Virus record (IMG/VR): IMGVR_UViG_3300020471_000114
Location: 1-35,891 of that record
Strand: one strand, 5' to 3'
From: a virus
Length of the DNA: 35,891 nt
Below, piece by piece: positions 4,449 to 13,878 of the stretch. The notes beneath the pieces are model-generated. The model saw only the letters and a list, made by a program, of their open reading frames with translations, did no database searches and had not been told where the DNA came from. A program made the translations under genes and the position numbers. Position 1 is the stretch's first letter, and the number at the start of each line of letters is the position of its first letter.

Positions 4449-5861
4449 CTATACTACATTCAGTTTTAATGCATGTTCTTTTACCTCGTCAATATCTTTG
4501 AGGTTAATAATTCTATTGGCTGTACATATATCGTAACAATCTTTAAGTAAATTGTAACCATTGCTATTTCTGCCTATACCAAATACTTTCATATCTGATA
4601 CCCATATTCTACGTGGTGGCATCTCTGCTAACCAGCGTAGTGCAGGACCGTCAATAACATTACCGCCACCACTATGGTCATCAAGATATGTATCATCAAC
4701 ACGCATACCATTTTTAGCAATAATACGTAGATTACCTCCATTGTGATAGCCATTGTACATAGCTATGTTTACAGCAGGTAACAACATCATAATATCTAGT
4801 ATGTCTTTGCCATAAAAATTCATACTACCTGATGCATCTATTAGTATTGTGCCACCTTTAACACGTTGTTTTTGTTTGAATATCTTTTTATCTATACAAT
4901 ATCTGTTGATATATTTAGGATTGTAACCATAGTCCATAGGTCTATATGCACGTCCATGATTAATTCGTGAACGTAAGTTAACAGACATAGGAGGTTCATG
5001 TATTTCCATTTTACCCCATTCACCTATACCACTACCAGAACGATATAACATATCTTCTTGTAATGATGTACGCATACGCTTTTCTAATTCATCTGCATTA
5101 CCTGCAGAAGCTATTTGTTCATCACCCTCACCTTCACCTTCATGTTCTGATTGTCCAGGTTGTGATTTTGGTGCGTGTATTTCATCTGGTTTAGGTTTAT
5201 CAATAAACTCATTGATAACATGAGATAATTTTTCTGCAAGTTTTTGCACTTTACGATAACTAGGCCATTGATTGTACCTATGATTAATAAGTTTAGCTGC
5301 ATAACTATTAGCTACTTGTATTGCAAATTTTAGTTCTGATTGTCTAATGATATGTAATGTTTCATCATCAGATGCTTTATCAAATGCATTTACAACATCT
5401 CTACTTATTTGTGCTTCTAGTACATAATGGTCATTGACGTATGTTTTACTAGCAAGTATATACAATATAATATCAGCAACACTAGCTGACTTTATCATAC
5501 GTAATATCATTGCTTCTACTTGTATCATACATAATACAGGTTCATCACATGGCAATTTTGCACGTGCTGCAAGTAAATAATTAATACGTACTTCTTCTAG
5601 TGCATGTATACAGTCAGCCCTAGTACCACGCATTAGTTTACCCATAGTTTTAGGGGACCATTTAGCGTGACCTAGTTCGTGTCTACGTATCATACGACCA
5701 TGGTTAACACCACATTCTTCACATTCCCTATTCATAGGTACATACATTTGTCTGTTTAAGTTGTCTGTCCTAGGTTGTGGGTCGTGCTCAGTATTTTCGT
5801 AAACATTCCAGTCTTCACCAGTAACTATTTGGGGATATGGATATGCTTTACTGTTATACAT
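4449..5861 (-). CDS. Zincin-VWA protein, partner of MoxR ATPase (CobT-like)
   Basis: A 470-aa protein with two recognisable parts. The N-terminal part has HELGH (61-65), an HExxH zinc-protease motif, followed by EEVR (89-92), where Glu could be the third zinc ligand. After an acidic Gly/Glu linker (235-250) comes a VWA domain with a MIDAS motif DASGS (342-346), a Gly-rich segment (398-405) and a later acidic site VSDMK (421-425). A Cys pair CEEC (47-50) precedes the HExxH motif. Paired with the MoxR AAA+ gene directly upstream (eight-base overlap), it resembles the MoxR-VWA and CobS-CobT partnerships, in which the ATPase loads or remodels a metal-dependent partner. The target here is unknown. 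Confidence 0.75.
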   Translation of the reverse strand: MYNSKAYPYPQIVTGEDWNVYENTEHDPQPRTDNLNRQMYVPMNRECEECGVNHGRMIRRHELGHAKWSPKTMGKLMRGTRADCIHALEEVRINYLLAARAKLPCDEPVLCMIQVEAMILRMIKSASVADIILYILASKTYVNDHYVLEAQISRDVVNAFDKASDDETLHIIRQSELKFAIQVANSYAAKLINHRYNQWPSYRKVQKLAEKLSHVINEFIDKPKPDEIHAPKSQPGQSEHEGEGEGDEQIASAGNADELEKRMRTSLQEDMLYRSGSGIGEWGKMEIHEPPMSVNLRSRINHGRAYRPMDYGYNPKYINRYCIDKKIFKQKQRVKGGTILIDASGSMNFYGKDILDIMMLLPAVNIAMYNGYHNGGNLRIIAKNGMRVDDTYLDDHSGGGNVIDGPALRWLAEMPPRRIWVSDMKVFGIGRNSNGYNLLKDCYDICTANRIINLKDIDEVKEHALKLNVV

Positions 5862-6570
5862 TTGCTTTAGATAATGTTATGGCATCTATTAATTCTTCTG
5901 CTTTATCACCGAATACTAGCTTAGCTGCAGTTTCTGGAGTAAATCCTTGTTCTTGTAAGCCGAAAAATTCTGACCATGCACGTACAGATATACGTTCTTC
6001 AGGGTCATCAACCATAGTTGTATCATGTATTACACCATGCCATTCTTCTGGGAATTGTTCCATTGCCATTGGATGTATACTATCGACATAGATTTTTACA
6101 GGAAATCTATCTTTAAGTGCAAGAGGTAAGCTCTCTGGTGGACTGTTAGTAGTAGCAACTACTTCGAACCCTTCAGAAGGTCTTACTGTTTCCTTACTAT
6201 CATTATTGAGTGTCAACATTGCTATGTCTTGGTCATCCAATATAGCATGCAAGAATGTCATAGCGTCTGGTGATGCGTGGTCTATCTCGTTGATAACCAA
6301 CCTACCGCCATTACGCCATGCTTGTATTGCAATACCGTCATGCCATTCGAACTGACCTGTACTTGAAGGCTTATAAAAACCTTCTAAGTTTGCAGATGCA
6401 GTATCTTCTGTCATTGTAACCTGATACACATTAGGTGTACCGTCTGCATTAAGTGGTGCAGTTTGTTTGACTGCACTGTATGTTTTACCTGTACCTGGTG
6501 GGCCGTATAATAATACACGTCTAGTCTTACCTAGTACAGCTTGTATTTGTTTCCAACAATCGTTTTCCAT
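5854..6570 (-). CDS. MoxR/CobS-type AAA+ ATPase
   Basis: A 238-aa AAA+ protein: Walker A GPPGTGKT (23-30), Walker B LVINEID (91-97), sensor 1 ATTN (139-142) and an arginine-finger candidate in ALKDRF (151-156). The order and the short C-terminal lid fit the MoxR/AAA_5 class, chaperone-like ATPases that act with VWA-domain partners. The gene starts at ATG 6570 overlapping the stop of the 152-aa gene (TAATG) and ends inside the start of the VWA gene, so the three are one translational unit. A role in activating or disassembling a protein complex during infection is inference. Confidence 0.85.
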   Translation of the reverse strand: MENDCWKQIQAVLGKTRRVLLYGPPGTGKTYSAVKQTAPLNADGTPNVYQVTMTEDTASANLEGFYKPSSTGQFEWHDGIAIQAWRNGGRLVINEIDHASPDAMTFLHAILDDQDIAMLTLNNDSKETVRPSEGFEVVATTNSPPESLPLALKDRFPVKIYVDSIHPMAMEQFPEEWHGVIHDTTMVDDPEERISVRAWSEFFGLQEQGFTPETAAKLVFGDKAEELIDAITLSKANV

Positions 6571-7028
6571 TAGTCGTTCCTTTCTATATTTTTGAGGAAA
6601 TCATCAGCTTCATCGCCAATGTTTTCCATCATATGGTTTATGTTTGTAGTAGTCATATCTAACAACTTACCTTCGTCCTGTGTAAGGTGGCATTGTATAG
6701 ATGTAGGTTCTATCTCTAACCATTGTCTAAATGTACCTGTTTCTTCGGCATGTTGTCTGATTTGTTCTATCTCATCAAGAGTAAATGTCTTATCTTTATC
6801 AGGATAACCTGACATAAAGTTAGTCATTATCTCTGCTTTAGCAGACATAACAATATGCATAGCTCTTGTAATAGCTTGTATATTATCAGCTGCATGTACC
6901 ATTATTTTCCATACATCTGGTTCATCATCTGGATAACCTTTCTTATCCCCATGACTATCGAACTCTGCATATGCTATTACAACTGTAAAGCATTTATGTT
7001 CTCTTGGTACTTCTTCTATTAAGTTCAT
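6570..7028 (-). CDS. Unknown protein upstream of MoxR (152 aa)
   Basis: The start is taken as ATG 7028 (MNLIEEVPREHKCF) because AGAAAGGAAG lies just before it; the frame stays open seven codons further up to a TTG that has no binding site. The protein begins with a beta-rich segment (KCFTVVIAYAEFDSHGD), is helical in the middle, and ends acidic (DEADDFLKNIERND). No family is recognised. Its own ribosome binding site is inside a 17-bp hairpin (7027-7073), so its translation, and by coupling that of MoxR and the VWA protein, could be switched. Confidence 0.65.
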   Translation of the reverse strand: MNLIEEVPREHKCFTVVIAYAEFDSHGDKKGYPDDEPDVWKIMVHAADNIQAITRAMHIVMSAKAEIMTNFMSGYPDKDKTFTLDEIEQIRQHAEETGTFRQWLEIEPTSIQCHLTQDEGKLLDMTTTNINHMMENIGDEADDFLKNIERND

Positions 7029-10455: not shown

Positions 10456-10510
10456 ATATATCAGTCATCTTTCTGACTTCAAGAAGTCTGAAGAAAGATG
10501 AGTGATATAT
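10456..10510 (-). repeat. Composite CUUG hairpin, copy 1
   Basis: Minus-strand RNA: outer stem CAUCUUUC/GAAAGAUG (10493-10500, 10466-10473), extended by AUAUAUCA/UGAUAUAU; left internal loop UUCA, right A; inner stem GACUU/AAGUC closed by CUUG. It follows the 27-aa gene by two bases and is followed by UGACUGAUA, as in copies 3 and 4. A second AT-rich hairpin lies directly after it (10430-10455). Confidence 0.75.
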
Positions 10511-10511
10511 A

Positions 10512-10595
10512 CTATCCTGTGTGATACACATGATAGAAATAATCAGCAGTATGTTCTACGCCACATTCGTGGCAGTAAATTGTTTCAACAATCAA
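10512..10595 (-). CDS. Very small CxxC protein, TTG start (27 aa)
   Basis: A 27-codon frame starting at TTG 10595, with GAAAGG six bases upstream. It contains YCHECG (7-12) and His residues at 15, 22 and 25, giving a plausible zinc site (CHEC ... H). It follows the 26-aa gene after 14 bases and is followed two bases later by composite hairpin 1. The good binding site and the Cys pair shared with its neighbour argue for a real gene; the TTG start and tiny size argue for caution. Confidence 0.45.
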   Translation of the reverse strand: MIVETIYCHECGVEHTADYFYHVYHTG

Positions 10596-10609
10596 TTTAT
10601 ACCTTTCAG

Positions 10610-10690
10610 TTATTCATAGCAGTGGCAGTCTTTATCCCATTCGGGTAATTCACACCACATGCAATAGTTATCTACACCATACTTAATCAT
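10610..10690 (-). CDS. Very small zinc-knuckle-like protein (26 aa)
   Basis: A 26-codon frame from ATG 10690 with GAAAGGAA eight bases upstream. It has CMWC (10-13) and CHC (22-24), enough ligands for one zinc in a minimal knuckle. It lies between composite hairpin 2 and the 27-aa CHEC gene. The strong binding site, Cys pattern and fit to the gene-hairpin-gene spacing make it likely to be translated. Function unknown. Confidence 0.55.
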   Translation of the reverse strand: MIKYGVDNYCMWCELPEWDKDCHCYE

Positions 10691-10711
10691 ATATATTCCT
10701 TTCAATATATA

Positions 10712-10750
10712 ATTACTGTCCTGAACTCAAGAGTTCGGAAGGACAGTAAT
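10712..10750 (-). repeat. Composite CUUG hairpin, copy 2
   Basis: Minus-strand RNA: outer stem of 9-10 bp (10741-10750 with 10712-10721, UACUGUCC/GGACAGUA core), left internal loop UUCC, right A, inner stem GAACU/AGUUC, loop CUUG. It begins eight bases after the stop of the 74-aa gene and ends about 13 bases before the binding site of the 26-aa gene. Confidence 0.75.
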
Positions 10751-10758
10751 TTATTTGA

Positions 10759-10983
10759 TTATTTAAATAGTGCCAGCTTTAGCTGGTCTATCTTGGTTAG
10801 TTCCTGTTTAGAAACTTCCCAAGCATTATCCCCATTTAAATACACTTTGGTGCTACACGCACCATAATGTATATTAAGGGGATATGTCATACCATTTTTA
10901 GCTGGTTTCCAGTATGCATCTTTCTTAAAAACGATTTCGCTTTTACATACTCTACATACTTTTTTATTTTTAAATTTATCCAT
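10759..10983 (-). CDS. Small zinc-finger-like protein (74 aa)
   Basis: The start is taken as ATG 10983 (MDKFKNKKVCRVCKSE) because AAAGAAAGGAA precedes it; a longer in-frame start lacks a site and would run into the upstream hairpin. CRVC (10-13), with H31 and C34 (in NIHYGAC), can form a CCHC zinc site. The rest is a compact beta-rich body ending in a helix (LTKIDQLKLALFK). No family is recognised. It is flanked by composite hairpins 3 (upstream) and 2 (downstream). Confidence 0.7.
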   Translation of the reverse strand: MDKFKNKKVCRVCKSEIVFKKDAYWKPAKNGMTYPLNIHYGACSTKVYLNGDNAWEVSKQELTKIDQLKLALFK

Positions 10984-11019
10984 TTTTATTCCTTTCTTTA
11001 AATAGATAAGATACATAAG

Positions 11020-11068
11020 TATCAGTCAGTATTCTGACCACAAGTGGTCGGAAGAATACTGATTGATA
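11020..11068 (-). repeat. Composite CUUG hairpin, copy 3
   Basis: Minus-strand RNA: outer stem UCAGUAUUC/GAAUACUGA (11054-11062 with 11026-11034), extended by UAUCA/UGAUA; left internal loop UUCC, right A; inner stem GACCA/UGGUC; loop CUUG. Compared with copy 4, one outer pair changes on both sides (U-A to C-G), as a conserved RNA stem would. Confidence 0.75.
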
Positions 11069-11221
11069 ATTACACACTGCGACACTCTGGTCATGCTCAG
11101 CTTGTTGTGTCGCTGGGTTTGTACCGATGGTTGCCATACATACTCGTATCATGAACTCTCTACTTACTCGTATGTATCATTGCAACTAAATACTCATTAA
11201 GATTAACTCCTTTCTAATAAG

Positions 11222-11270
11222 TATCAGTCAGCATTCTGACTTCAAGAAGTCGGAAGAATGCTGAATGATA
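11222..11270 (-). repeat. Composite CUUG hairpin, copy 4
   Basis: Minus-strand RNA: outer stem UCAGCAUUC/GAAUGCUGA, extended by UAUCA/UGAUA; left internal loop UUCC, right A; inner stem GACUU/AAGUC; loop CUUG. It starts two bases after the stop of the 47-aa gene. It is followed by a perfect binding site (AAAGGAG) that serves only a three-codon frame (M-S-I-stop) at about 11197, and the 130 bases after that hold no convincing gene. Confidence 0.75.
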
Positions 11271-11271
11271 A

Positions 11272-11415
11272 TTACTTTTTAAGATATTTTTCCCTTAAAG
11301 TTGGAACCTCGCTATAAATATCTTTATTCCAATTACGCAAGGCTATATATCTTACACGCCATTTCCATACTTTATAAGTCTGGAATGGCACTAACCAATA
11401 TCTTAATTTATTCAT
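11272..11415 (-). CDS. Small basic aromatic protein (47 aa)
   Basis: A 47-codon frame from ATG 11415 with AGAAAGGAT upstream. It is strongly basic and rich in Trp and Tyr (MNKLRYWLVPFQTYKVWKWR), ending REKYLKK. It could bind nucleic acid or membrane; no family is recognised. Composite hairpin 4 begins two bases after its stop. Good binding site and coding character support it. Confidence 0.6.
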   Translation of the reverse strand: MNKLRYWLVPFQTYKVWKWRVRYIALRNWNKDIYSEVPTLREKYLKK

Positions 11416-11489
11416 ATAATATCCTTTCTGTCGGAAGGTTCGAACTCAGAAGTTCGAGAACCTTCTAGACATAAAGATATATAATTCAT
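11412..11489 (-). CDS. Possible 25-codon gene spanning hairpin 5
   Basis: A frame from ATG 11489 (MNYISLCLEGSRTS) to a TGA that overlaps the ATG of the 47-aa gene as ATGA. There is no clear binding site, and the frame runs through composite hairpin 5, whereas every other copy lies between genes. The ATGA coupling is the only positive sign. It may be a chance frame. Confidence 0.25.
   Translation of the reverse strand: MNYISLCLEGSRTSEFEPSDRKDII
11430..11470 (-). repeat. Composite hairpin, copy 5 (variant)
   Basis: Minus-strand RNA: outer stem GAAGGUU/AACCUUC (11459-11465 with 11434-11440), left internal loop CUC, right G; inner stem GAACU/AGUUC; loop UCUG. Same architecture as the other copies, but the internal loop and tetraloop differ. 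It lies directly before the binding site of the 47-aa gene. Confidence 0.65.
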
Positions 11490-11548
11490 AAGACTGTATA
11501 GGTATCTTAAATAACTATATATCTCTATATTTTAATGTACTAGGAAGC

Positions 11549-11585
11549 CAGACTGTCTGACTTCAGGAAGTCTGAAGACAGTCTG
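11549..11585 (-). repeat. Composite hairpin, copy 6
   Basis: Minus-strand RNA: outer stem CAGACUGUC/GACAGUCUG (11577-11585 with 11549-11557), left internal loop UUCA, right A; inner stem GACUU/AAGUC; loop CCUG. It begins two bases after the stop of the 23-aa gene. It is the first copy met by a transcript coming from the divergent promoter region. Confidence 0.75.
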
Positions 11586-11748: not shown

Positions 11749-11778
11749 ATGGTTTTTTAAAGCTAACTAAACCTTTTC

Positions 11779-11844
11779 TTAAGTCCTTGGGTACTGCCTT
11801 TGTCTTTCTAGTGTACTGTCTTGCCAGTCAGCAGCTTTCTGCAT
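11779..11844 (-). CDS. Very small protein, first of the minus-strand operon (21 aa)
   Basis: A 21-codon frame from ATG 11844 (MQKAADWQDSTLERQRQ, ending YPRT), with AAGGTG eight bases upstream. The frame is open and protein-like for nine more codons upstream (TGEGAIG), so it may instead be the tail of a decayed gene. It lies just downstream of the minus-strand promoter candidate and would be the first gene translated. Confidence 0.4.
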   Translation of the reverse strand: MQKAADWQDSTLERQRQYPRT

Positions 11845-11888
11845 CCCGATTGCACCTTCACCTGTAACAGATTACTTGTGTTTAGTGT

Positions 11889-11917
11889 TTGTAATTAACA
11901 TGACTATAGCATATAAT
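11889..11917 (+). promoter_or_regulatory. Plus-strand promoter before the terminase gene
   Basis: TTGTAA (11889-11894), a 17-base spacer and a perfect TATAAT (11912-11917) give a sigma70-type promoter. Transcription would start near 11924, about 30 bases before the terminase ATG at 11956. It overlaps the minus-strand candidate, so the two may exclude each other. Confidence 0.6.
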
Positions 11918-11930
11918 TCTCACTATACAA
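11903..11930 (-). promoter_or_regulatory. Minus-strand promoter candidate
   Basis: On the minus strand, TTGTAT (11930-11925), a 16-base spacer and TATAGT (11908-11903) resemble a sigma70 promoter. It is placed to drive the minus-strand operon and overlaps the plus-strand promoter. It is weaker than its partner. Confidence 0.4.
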
Positions 11931-11955: not shown

Positions 11956-13878
11956 ATGGTAGATACTACCAATAATGTTATCTGTATAGCAGAGGGCTGT
12001 AGGAAGAAACTTAAGGGCAAACAACGTAAATTCTGTTCTCCTACATGCCAAAAACGTCAATTTGCAAGAGATAAGTACTATAACAAGAAAGTTGACACAA
12101 AACCTATTAATATAGAACGTAAGTCTGACGAGGGCGACTACGCTTCCGTTAGGCGAGGACAGTATTACCGAGCTTTCGTAAGCGAAGGAATAGCTGAACA
12201 AGTGGCCACTGGCGATATGGCAGTAGCTGACGCAGCTTCACTCCTTGGTTGCACTTCGGCTACTGTCAGTCGCATGCTTGCTGCATTCAAAATAGATACA
12301 CGAAACGAAATAGCTGCAGAAGAATGGGAACTATCCAAAGAAGCAAAGGCTGCATTAGAAAATTTTTCAAACTTCCGACAAAGATACTTTAGAACAGAAC
12401 TAGGAGAAATATACGACACCGCAGATTTTCATACTAACTGGATAAATAACATTATAGATAGTATTGATAACGGTAAAGAATTACTGATACTGTCACCCCC
12501 ACGACATGGAAAGACTGAATTATTAATACACTTTGCTGTATATCAAATATGCAAAAACCCTAACACAAGAATTATGTGGGTAGGTGGTAACGAAGACATT
12601 GCTAAGAACGCACTATCTGCTGTACTTGATGTATTAGATACTAATGAAGAATTACAAGAAGACTTTTGTTTACCAGGTACATCTTTTAAGCCAGACAATA
12701 GGTCAGGAAAGAACTGGTCACAAAATCAATTTACTGTAGGTACTAGAACTGTTGCAGGTATTAAATCACCTACTATGGTTGCTGTAGGTAAAGGTGGCAA
12801 GATATTATCTCGTGACTGCGATATTATTATTGCTGACGACATTGAGGACCATCAAACAACTATGCAACCTGGTGCAAGAGAATCTACAAGACAATGGTGG
12901 ACTACAACATTATCAAGTCGTAAAGAGGAACATACAGCTGTTATTGTTATAGGTTCTAGACAACACCCTGATGATTTATATAATCATTTACTTGACTCAG
13001 ATAATTTTACAAGCATAGTAGAAACAGCACATGCTATTGAATGCGATAAACCAGAACATTTAGAAGATGAACATGTTGATTGTATGTTATGGCCTAAGAA
13101 AAGAACTTTTAAATGGTTACAATCTAGATTAAATTCTGCAGAGTCAACAGGTGGTAGACAAACTTTTGAAATGGTTTATTACAACCAAGCATATGTAGAA
13201 GGTACGCAAATATTTACTATGAACATAATTGACCAATGTATGCGTAGCGATTTAGTATTAGGACAGGTATACAAAAATCTTTACCTTGTTGCTGGTTTAG
13301 ACCCTGCATCAAGTGGTTACCAAGCAAGTGTATTGTGGGGTATAGACCAGTACAGGGGAGAGTTATATCTAGTAGATTTAGAAAATAGACGTGGAGGTGG
13401 AATTAGGGCTGCGTTAGACCAAATGGCTGATTGGTTACATACCTATGATTGTAGACATTGGATAGTAGAAGAAAATGGTTTTCAATCTGCTATTAGACAA
13501 GATGCAAGTATAAAAGAATTTACACTACGTACAGGTATAACAGTACAAGGTCACATGACAGGTAAAAACAAACATGACCCACTATATGGTGTAGGTGCTA
13601 TGGCTGATTTGTTTGAAGATAGAAGAATACATTTACCTACTGGTGATGGAGAATCTAATGCTAAAGTACAGAAATACAGACAACAACTGTTATACTTTGA
13701 TGGAAAACCTGTTTCTAAAAGAAACAAAGAGAAGACCGATATAGTTATGGCTAGTTGGTTTCCAATGAAAGTTTTTAGGCGTATGCAAAAAGAGCATGCT
13801 GCTGATATAGGGTTAGACTATAACCCTAGTTATGGAGATTACAAGATTACAGAAATGAATGAGGCACCGTGGGGATAG
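11956..13878 (+). CDS. terL: Terminase large subunit with N-terminal zinc finger and HTH
   Basis: A 640-aa packaging motor. The ATPase half has Walker A SPPRHGKT (180-187) and Walker B IIIADDIE (290-297); the nuclease half has GLDPAS (447-452), EEN (505-507) and KTDIV (593-597), supplying the metal-binding acidic residues. It pulls DNA into the prohead through the portal and cuts it. Unusually, the first 115 residues add a four-Cys finger (C10, C15, C27, C31) and a helix-turn-helix (MAVADAASLLGCTSATVSRM, 89-107), which look like DNA-recognition modules normally found in a separate small subunit. No separate small-terminase gene is seen nearby. It overlaps the portal gene by ten bases. Confidence 0.92.
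   Translation: MVDTTNNVICIAEGCRKKLKGKQRKFCSPTCQKRQFARDKYYNKKVDTKPINIERKSDEGDYASVRRGQYYRAFVSEGIAEQVATGDMAVADAASLLGCTSATVSRMLAAFKIDTRNEIAAEEWELSKEAKAALENFSNFRQRYFRTELGEIYDTADFHTNWINNIIDSIDNGKELLILSPPRHGKTELLIHFAVYQICKNPNTRIMWVGGNEDIAKNALSAVLDVLDTNEELQEDFCLPGTSFKPDNRSGKNWSQNQFTVGTRTVAGIKSPTMVAVGKGGKILSRDCDIIIADDIEDHQTTMQPGARESTRQWWTTTLSSRKEEHTAVIVIGSRQHPDDLYNHLLDSDNFTSIVETAHAIECDKPEHLEDEHVDCMLWPKKRTFKWLQSRLNSAESTGGRQTFEMVYYNQAYVEGTQIFTMNIIDQCMRSDLVLGQVYKNLYLVAGLDPASSGYQASVLWGIDQYRGELYLVDLENRRGGGIRAALDQMADWLHTYDCRHWIVEENGFQSAIRQDASIKEFTLRTGITVQGHMTGKNKHDPLYGVGAMADLFEDRRIHLPTGDGESNAKVQKYRQQLLYFDGKPVSKRNKEKTDIVMASWFPMKVFRRMQKEHAADIGLDYNPSYGDYKITEMNEAPWG

Follow-up and report, generated by a model that had tools for sequence, protein, structure and literature searches.

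Bulged RNA hairpins with a fast-changing core recur in the early operon of a clade of uncultivated phages and resemble the RNase III processing sites of T7 and T3

The DNA studied here, called the window, is a tailed-phage virus record of 35,891 bases with a GC content of 34.9%, in which the late genes run rightwards from the terminase gene at position 11956 and the early genes run leftwards. The source is an uncultivated, probably marine phage, and IMG/VR holds at least several hundred contigs with the terminase of this clade. The first 8 kb of the window have no match to named phages at the DNA level. The terminase shares less than 60% identity with all 44 matching named phage records (25 to 27% among the 20 matches listed), 29 of which are Streptomyces phages, and the capsid matches are led by phages of Mycobacterium (13 of 23) and Propionibacterium (8 of 23). 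The exonuclease is 43% identical to that of Streptomyces phage Dagobah, whereas the haloarchaeal viruses that make up 38 of its 48 matching records show a lower identity. MAG contigs holding relatives carry mixed labels, with Actinomycetota for two of five, both out of one MAG. Because the nearest protein matches overall are mostly phages of actinobacteria, with the MAG labels being mixed, we propose a low-GC marine actinobacterium as the putative host. The first actinomarinal phages are mentioned in passages of PMC7771536 that do not link them to the window phage.

Six hairpins lie on the minus strand early in the early operon, together with very small genes on the same strand. In the order of transcription, the first hairpin of the leftward transcript is copy 6 (11549 to 11585), with a 10-bp stem, a UCA bulge, the inner stem GACUU/AAGUC, and a CCUG loop, followed by copy 5 (11434 to 11465), which sits in the 5' leader and has a 2-nt UC bulge, the inner stem GAACU/AGUUC, and a UCUG loop. 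A basic, aromatic protein of 47 residues is encoded between hairpins 5 and 4 (11272 to 11415), and 7 nt past its gene follows copy 4 (11228 to 11264; 10-bp stem, UCC bulge, GACUU/AAGUC, CUUG). Copy 3 (11026 to 11062; 10-bp stem, UCC bulge, GACCA/UGGUC, CUUG) has the same outer TATCA/TGATA as copy 4. The gene between hairpins 3 and 2 (10759 to 10983) codes for a 74-residue protein with a zinc-type C-x2-C...H-x3-C pattern, and copy 2 (10711 to 10751; 12-bp stem, UCC bulge, GAACU/AGUUC, CUUG) begins 7 nt past it. A Cys-rich protein of 26 residues (10610 to 10690) comes after hairpin 2, and a protein of 27 residues with a TTG start and a CHEC...H pattern (10512 to 10595) ends 10 nt before copy 1 (10465 to 10501; 10-bp stem, 3-nt UCA bulge, inner stem of 5/6 bp, CUUG).

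A descriptor scan of the window confirms the place and strand of these six elements as given in an earlier note on this DNA, and the same descriptor finds one further, weaker match in the 35,891 bases, at 6825 to 6855; the late operon of the window has no such hairpins. The statement that the elements start 2 to 9 bases after a tiny gene is roughly right for copies 4, 2, and 1, which lie 7, 7, and 10 nt past credible open reading frames (ORFs). Copy 6 is preceded at 2 nt only by a doubtful 23-residue ORF with a TTG start, and under our ORF rule no gene ends immediately before copy 3 or copy 5. The first two hairpins, copies 6 and 5, are leader elements without a credible gene between them. Across 90 hairpins from 21 genomes (a set that leaves out L047, L058, and L069, with 9 of the 99 hairpins from 24 genomes), the hairpin starts at a median of 10 nt past the stop codon where an ORF could be called, which is the case for 52 of the 90 under a loose rule that admits some ORFs that are not genes. 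The hairpins separate the proximal genes of the early operon, and several of the distal early genes overlap or abut. Far down the operon, at about 2258 to 2300 on the minus strand, lies another strong bulged hairpin with a TTATCTTCGTGT stem, also seen in G001 and L337. The window also codes for an AAA ATPase (5854 to 6570, minus strand; AAA_5, with a weak bpMoxR match), which adjoins a hypothetical 470-residue protein (4449 to 5861, minus strand) matching phrog_33218. An AAA ATPase with an adjoining partner gene often forms an AAA/VWA pair.

The six copies have folding energies of -14.1 to -18.6 kcal/mol, with z-scores of -4.9 to -6.5 against mononucleotide shuffles. The asymmetry described as an internal loop of UUCC or UUCA against a single A turns out to be a 3-nt 5' bulge (UCC or UCA), because the first U pairs with the lone right-hand A. 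In copy 5, the reported CUC/G loop folds instead into a C-G pair next to a UC bulge of 2 nt. Read on the transcribed strand, six of six copies have a 5' bulge. In the CUUG and CCUG copies, the first loop base can pair with the last (C-G), which lengthens the inner stem to 6 bp and leaves a loop of 2 nt. The outer stem exists and is longer than the 7 to 10 bp previously given: in folding, the helix runs on outwards, across a 1x1 mismatch or a small internal loop, to a total of 24 to 28 bp, as exemplified by TATCA/TGATA at copies 3 and 4. A kink-turn was rejected by eye: the inner-stem GA forms ordinary pairs with UC, so that tandem sheared pairs are absent.

The hairpins are conserved in structure rather than in sequence, as had been claimed from the window alone. 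In an alignment of 15 copies, 12 of them distinct, from the window and four relatives, all 180 of 180 cells are paired, and sliding the partner by 1 to 3 columns as a control lowers the pairing to 28 to 36%. Two-sided changes occur at 11 of the 15 base pairs and in 56 cells, compared with a mean of 18.5 in shuffles, and none of 500 shuffles reaches the covariation score; the copies are not independent events, because they are partly paralogous. A measure counting further pair types shows no excess (17 versus 18.4 in shuffles). The two-sided change between the outer stems of copies 3 and 4 (U-A versus C-G) is upheld. Four of the 15 pairs are invariant, two on either side of the bulge, and these would be where a protein reads the RNA or a nuclease is steered. 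The pattern of changes argues firmly for selection on the hairpins as base-paired structures, and they are a real, structure-conserved RNA element present in multiple copies. At the gathering score, Rfam 15 has no match in the window, L025, L043, or L077, and the sub-threshold matches at E values up to 10 are mostly microRNA models.

The earlier note suggested looking for the element between the small genes of related phages, where it does recur; the copies occupy corresponding positions in the leftward early operon and are rare outside it. Further copies and covariation beyond that of shuffles were both found, and the note's other ground for refutation, base-level conservation of these sequences as protein code, does not apply. 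By our reading of the descriptor list, 27 of the 58 relatives whose sequence extends upstream of the terminase have a core of the UUCC or UGCU type at corresponding distances, at about -370, -500, -650 to -700, and further out. A covariance model built from the 15 copies and run over 49 sources (721 kb) gives 56 matches at E < 0.01, representing some 44 places and counting twice those in G014, which is nearly identical to the window; all 56 lie 394 to 1671 bases upstream of the terminase start. The model scores higher on the transcribed strand for 44 of the 56, which is weak evidence of orientation as the model itself was built from that strand. Neither phage Dagobah nor L326 and L328, two distant MAG loci, contain a match to the model. 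At a score of at least 13, 65 of the 68 minus-strand hairpins in 17 records, again with G014 doubling the window, are on the early side of the terminase and 48 are within 2.5 kb of it, compared with 5 hairpins in total over 51 block shuffles. No hairpin reaches this score in G008, G009, G012, and G016, with weaker ones present below the cut in G009 and G016. The descriptor search upstream of the terminase finds nothing in L019, L032, L036, L059, L063, L065, and L071; L059 and L071 have fewer than 830 upstream bases, and some of the other descriptor-negative relatives show weaker hairpins. In one survey of relatives, 13 of the 22 loci had at most 550 upstream bases or started inside the terminase, so that most of these were unable to show hairpins. 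All matches of three exact-core scans of IMG/VR are contigs of this phage clade, and a broad, filtered IUPAC scan gave one look-alike among the matches listed, in records L256 and L280. A literature search, with most subscription journals outside its reach, found no description of these hairpins.

The apex of the hairpin differs widely among these relatives. The CUUG loop, previously taken as the defining feature, is joined by CCUG, UCUG, UUUG, UUCG, AUG, ACA, UAAA, UAUA, CUCG, and others; loops and cores vary by lineage, and CUUG is therefore no hallmark. Among the more divergent cores, L043 and L057 have a 3' bulge with UUUAU loops, L070 has AUAAAAA loops, L077 combines a single bulged A and UUAY loops, and L036, L038, and L078 have AUCC-UUGC-GG. 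The several L077 hairpins upstream of the terminase, with their single bulged A, short inner stem, and UUAY-type loop, recall the coat-protein operators of RNA phages. The asymmetry is on the 3' side in the first copy of L041, L042, L050, L047, L058, and L069 and in the third copy of L040, and its side is therefore not fixed across the clade.

Within a genome, the core is uniform. We compared 50 hairpins from 11 genomes, not including L047, L058, and L069. Over the 16 nt surrounding the apex, hairpins of the same genome are 4.97 edits apart, as against 9.02 for hairpins of different genomes, a contrast that none of 2000 permutations reaches. Over the first 9 nt of the outer stem, the two distances are 4.98 and 5.22 edits (reached by 60 of 2000 permutations), making the outer arms within a genome at most slightly alike. 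The TCAGTATT outer stem precedes the gene of the 74-residue protein in the window, G001, G011, and G003, and the core of G003 is a different one. Behind this gene, four core types are found across nine genomes, each being the type of its own genome. As outer stems follow position and cores follow the genome, the core is, by these sequence comparisons, a property of the genome and the outer stem a property of the site. The earlier proposal of gene-hairpin cassettes moving as units does not agree with this pattern, since orthologous genes carry whatever core their genome uses; an integron-like cassette, in which the hairpin type travels with the gene, was rejected on the same nine genomes. ORFs between the hairpins are gained and lost, and the flanking hairpin and ribosome binding site (RBS) remain. 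Core replacement is seen even among phages that share about 90% identity in the terminase. A core that is uniform genome-wide yet rapidly replaced between relatives is, as far as the sequences tell, the unusual trait of this element.

Upstream of the hairpins, the same operon begins with a second structured RNA at 11766 to 11886 on the minus strand. It is multibranched, with the closing helix ACUAAAC/GUUUAGU and a UGCA-AUCGGGA-UGCA hairpin, and it covaries: across 18 relatives, 98.5% of cells are paired and 15 of 37 pairs have two-sided changes (0 of 500 shuffles). Its folding is better than that of column shuffles (z = -12.4), as is, less so, that of the opposite strand (z = -5.5). The leader RNA is present in L019, where the descriptor found no hairpin, and is therefore a separate element; it matches no Rfam family and, by blastn, no named phage. 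Before it stands a promoter-like TTGTAT-16-TATAGT at 11903 to 11930 on the minus strand, present in 15 of 18 aligned relatives, from which we infer the start of the leftward transcript. Divergent promoter-like sequences overlap at 11889 to 11930, the plus-strand one being TTGTAA-17-TATAAT.

With their placement behind small early genes and in the leader of the early operon, and with one core per genome, the hairpins have their closest parallel in T7 and T3. The T7 early message of roughly 7,000 nt is cut at five RNase III sites (PMC4858673). The T7/T3 sites (R0.3, R0.5, R1, R1.1, and R1.3) are likewise repeated bulged or looped hairpins among the early genes and in the leader, with an asymmetric loop, a lower stem that varies while its pairing is kept, and a single core common to each genome; the T3 sites were compared as annotated and the T7 sites at coordinates that we take to be correct. 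There is no sequence relation: the T7/T3 core AAGGUC/GGCCUU is not present, the cores here being different ones. The asymmetry here is a 3-nt 5' bulge close to the loop, window-type hairpins occur almost exclusively in the early operon, and T7 and T3 have one common core, whereas the close relatives here swap cores. The annotated sites of phage gh-1, all putative, have no within-genome core (18.6 edits within gh-1 versus 16.9 to others). The six annotated T3 sites measure 18 to 22 bp in five cases and 11 bp in one. Genome means of rod length in the 21-genome set are 20.7 to 28 bp for 18 genomes and shorter in G004 (19.0), G007 (16.0, with one copy misfolded at 4 bp), and G015 (13.6); six further genomes have single copies with rods of 14 to 18 bp. 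Between early cistrons, the window copies thus form a bulged double-stranded rod of roughly two helical turns, which G015 (10 to 18 bp) lacks.

As the T3 and T7 sites share this plan, our working model is that the hairpins are RNase III-type elements with a fast-changing core that serve to process or stabilize the early mRNA between its cistrons, a reading by analogy that we hold tentatively, at a little under an even chance. The hairpins would act in cis on the polycistronic leftward early mRNA, where an endonuclease specific for double strands, either the RNase III of the host or an enzyme of equivalent function, may recognize the bulged rod of about 24 bp. Cutting between cistrons would leave short mRNAs that carry one or a few genes and have structured ends. 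At T7 sites, an asymmetric loop limits cleavage to one strand or sets the cut, and the bulge/loop core might do the same here. The outer stems could be free to vary because only their helix is read. RNase III by itself does not explain core replacement between near relatives.

Since fast core replacement fits a co-evolving partner better than RNase III alone, we also allow, as the main rival and a possible but rather unlikely explanation, that each core is bound by an RNA-binding protein of its own lineage, encoded by the phage or supplied by the host and co-evolving with the core as in lambda N/boxB or Tat/TAR, which would act on the transcription, translation, or decay of the early message. 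The single core per genome, different in near relatives and carried on outer stems that are barely alike, points in this direction, as do the invariant residues crowded around the bulge and the genome-specific cores behind the gene of the 74-residue protein. This zinc-type protein, itself encoded within the array and found in 10 of the 12 genomes compared, tracks core distance with a rho of 0.72 (n = 10), the best among gene families in at least 8 genomes, picked from about 70 families, uncorrected and with phylogeny uncontrolled, and exceeded by four families with n of 5 to 7; the terminase reaches 0.56 (n = 12). Its structure model (pLDDT of 91) has no Foldseek match at E values up to 0.001, and its sequence matches nothing among solved structures below an E value of 0.14. 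The best fold matches are very weak (Foldseek E value of 0.19; VIA-align Z of at most 3.3) and mostly ribosomal or pre-ribosomal proteins, presumably the RNA-binding L24e and its relatives. The protein is a weak candidate for a putative trans factor of the hairpins, and its absence from the matches in 2 of the 12 genomes argues against such a role. Lambda nut sites resemble the hairpins in being placed early in the early operon and common within the phage, and nut hairpins of lambdoid phages differ between relatives, as the cores do here. Nut sites are not known to be repeated behind every gene, which counts against the comparison, whereas here several copies of long bulged rods occur, one per small gene. 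A lambda nut site was rejected for its boxA, as no boxA-like GCTCTTTA with up to one mismatch is found between 8,678 and 12,921. Of 10 proteins compared with Pfam, none matches an N-protein family at E values up to 0.5, and the 74-residue protein is a weak candidate partner. The class I core, with a U-C-N bulge and then invariant G-C and A-U pairs, follows the residue order of the arginine-binding motif of HIV TAR in its bulge and the two pairs above, a likeness in residue pattern and not a claim of homology; the loop here has 2 to 4 nt, unlike that of TAR, and class II lacks the U-C order. In T4, the phage protein gp43 binds its translational operator, an RNA hairpin whose loop varies among related phages (PMC3014915). 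That operator lies at one start site, and window-type hairpins recur and follow stop codons.

Simpler roles are less probable. Strong hairpins just past stop codons and in the leader might merely stabilize mRNA ends or insulate the translation of cistrons, without a dedicated nuclease or binding protein; any stable stem would then suffice and a common bulge and core would be needless, making this improbable. We consider it highly improbable that the hairpins are short repeats for the recombinational exchange of early ORFs. The phage does encode a protein of a single-strand annealing family, and homology blocks between relatives stop near hairpins and RBSs, as between the window and G001 (1 to 554, 884 to 1271, and 1348 to 2000 upstream of the terminase start), which proves little because gene boundaries adjoin hairpins by construction. 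Against such exchange, in the G002/L020 comparison an ORF comes without its own hairpin, the cores stay with the genome and not with the ORF, and recombination does not explain compensatory changes. Cluster O mycobacteriophages have short inverted motifs, many of them intergenic and concentrated in the leftward operon; these are 17-bp symmetric DNA repeats of meaningless orientation, about a third of them inside coding regions, and not bulged RNA hairpins (PMC4351075). A role as terminators or attenuators, or as DNA-level sites such as cruciforms or protein-binding palindromes, would suit the stable stems, the perfect outer palindromes, and the varying side of the asymmetry across the clade. 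We disfavour it as very unlikely in view of the consistent 5' bulge on the transcribed strand in the window and the near restriction to early mRNA junctions. The flanks lack the U-tract of an intrinsic terminator, which was rejected on reading them and had already been doubted in the earlier note; a terminator scan gives a single weak match, which falls in copy 4 on the 3' arm.

To our knowledge, detailed descriptions of hairpins that divide early messages between cistrons come from few phages, most of them T7-like. The hairpins described here may work like RNase III processing sites, and a clade unrelated to T7-like phages has the same design, with several different cores, which allows one to ask what shapes such sites: a nuclease, helix length alone, or a co-evolving partner. 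Should there be a partner protein, orthogonal RNA-protein pairs would be available ready-made in this clade. It is a speculative idea, and one that we think more likely wrong than right by some distance, that early expression in the clade runs via multi-copy hairpins whose core and matching binding or cutting factor switch specificity together among relatives. If this is true, the phages would hold a natural series of orthogonal recognition pairs behind a new structured leader RNA.
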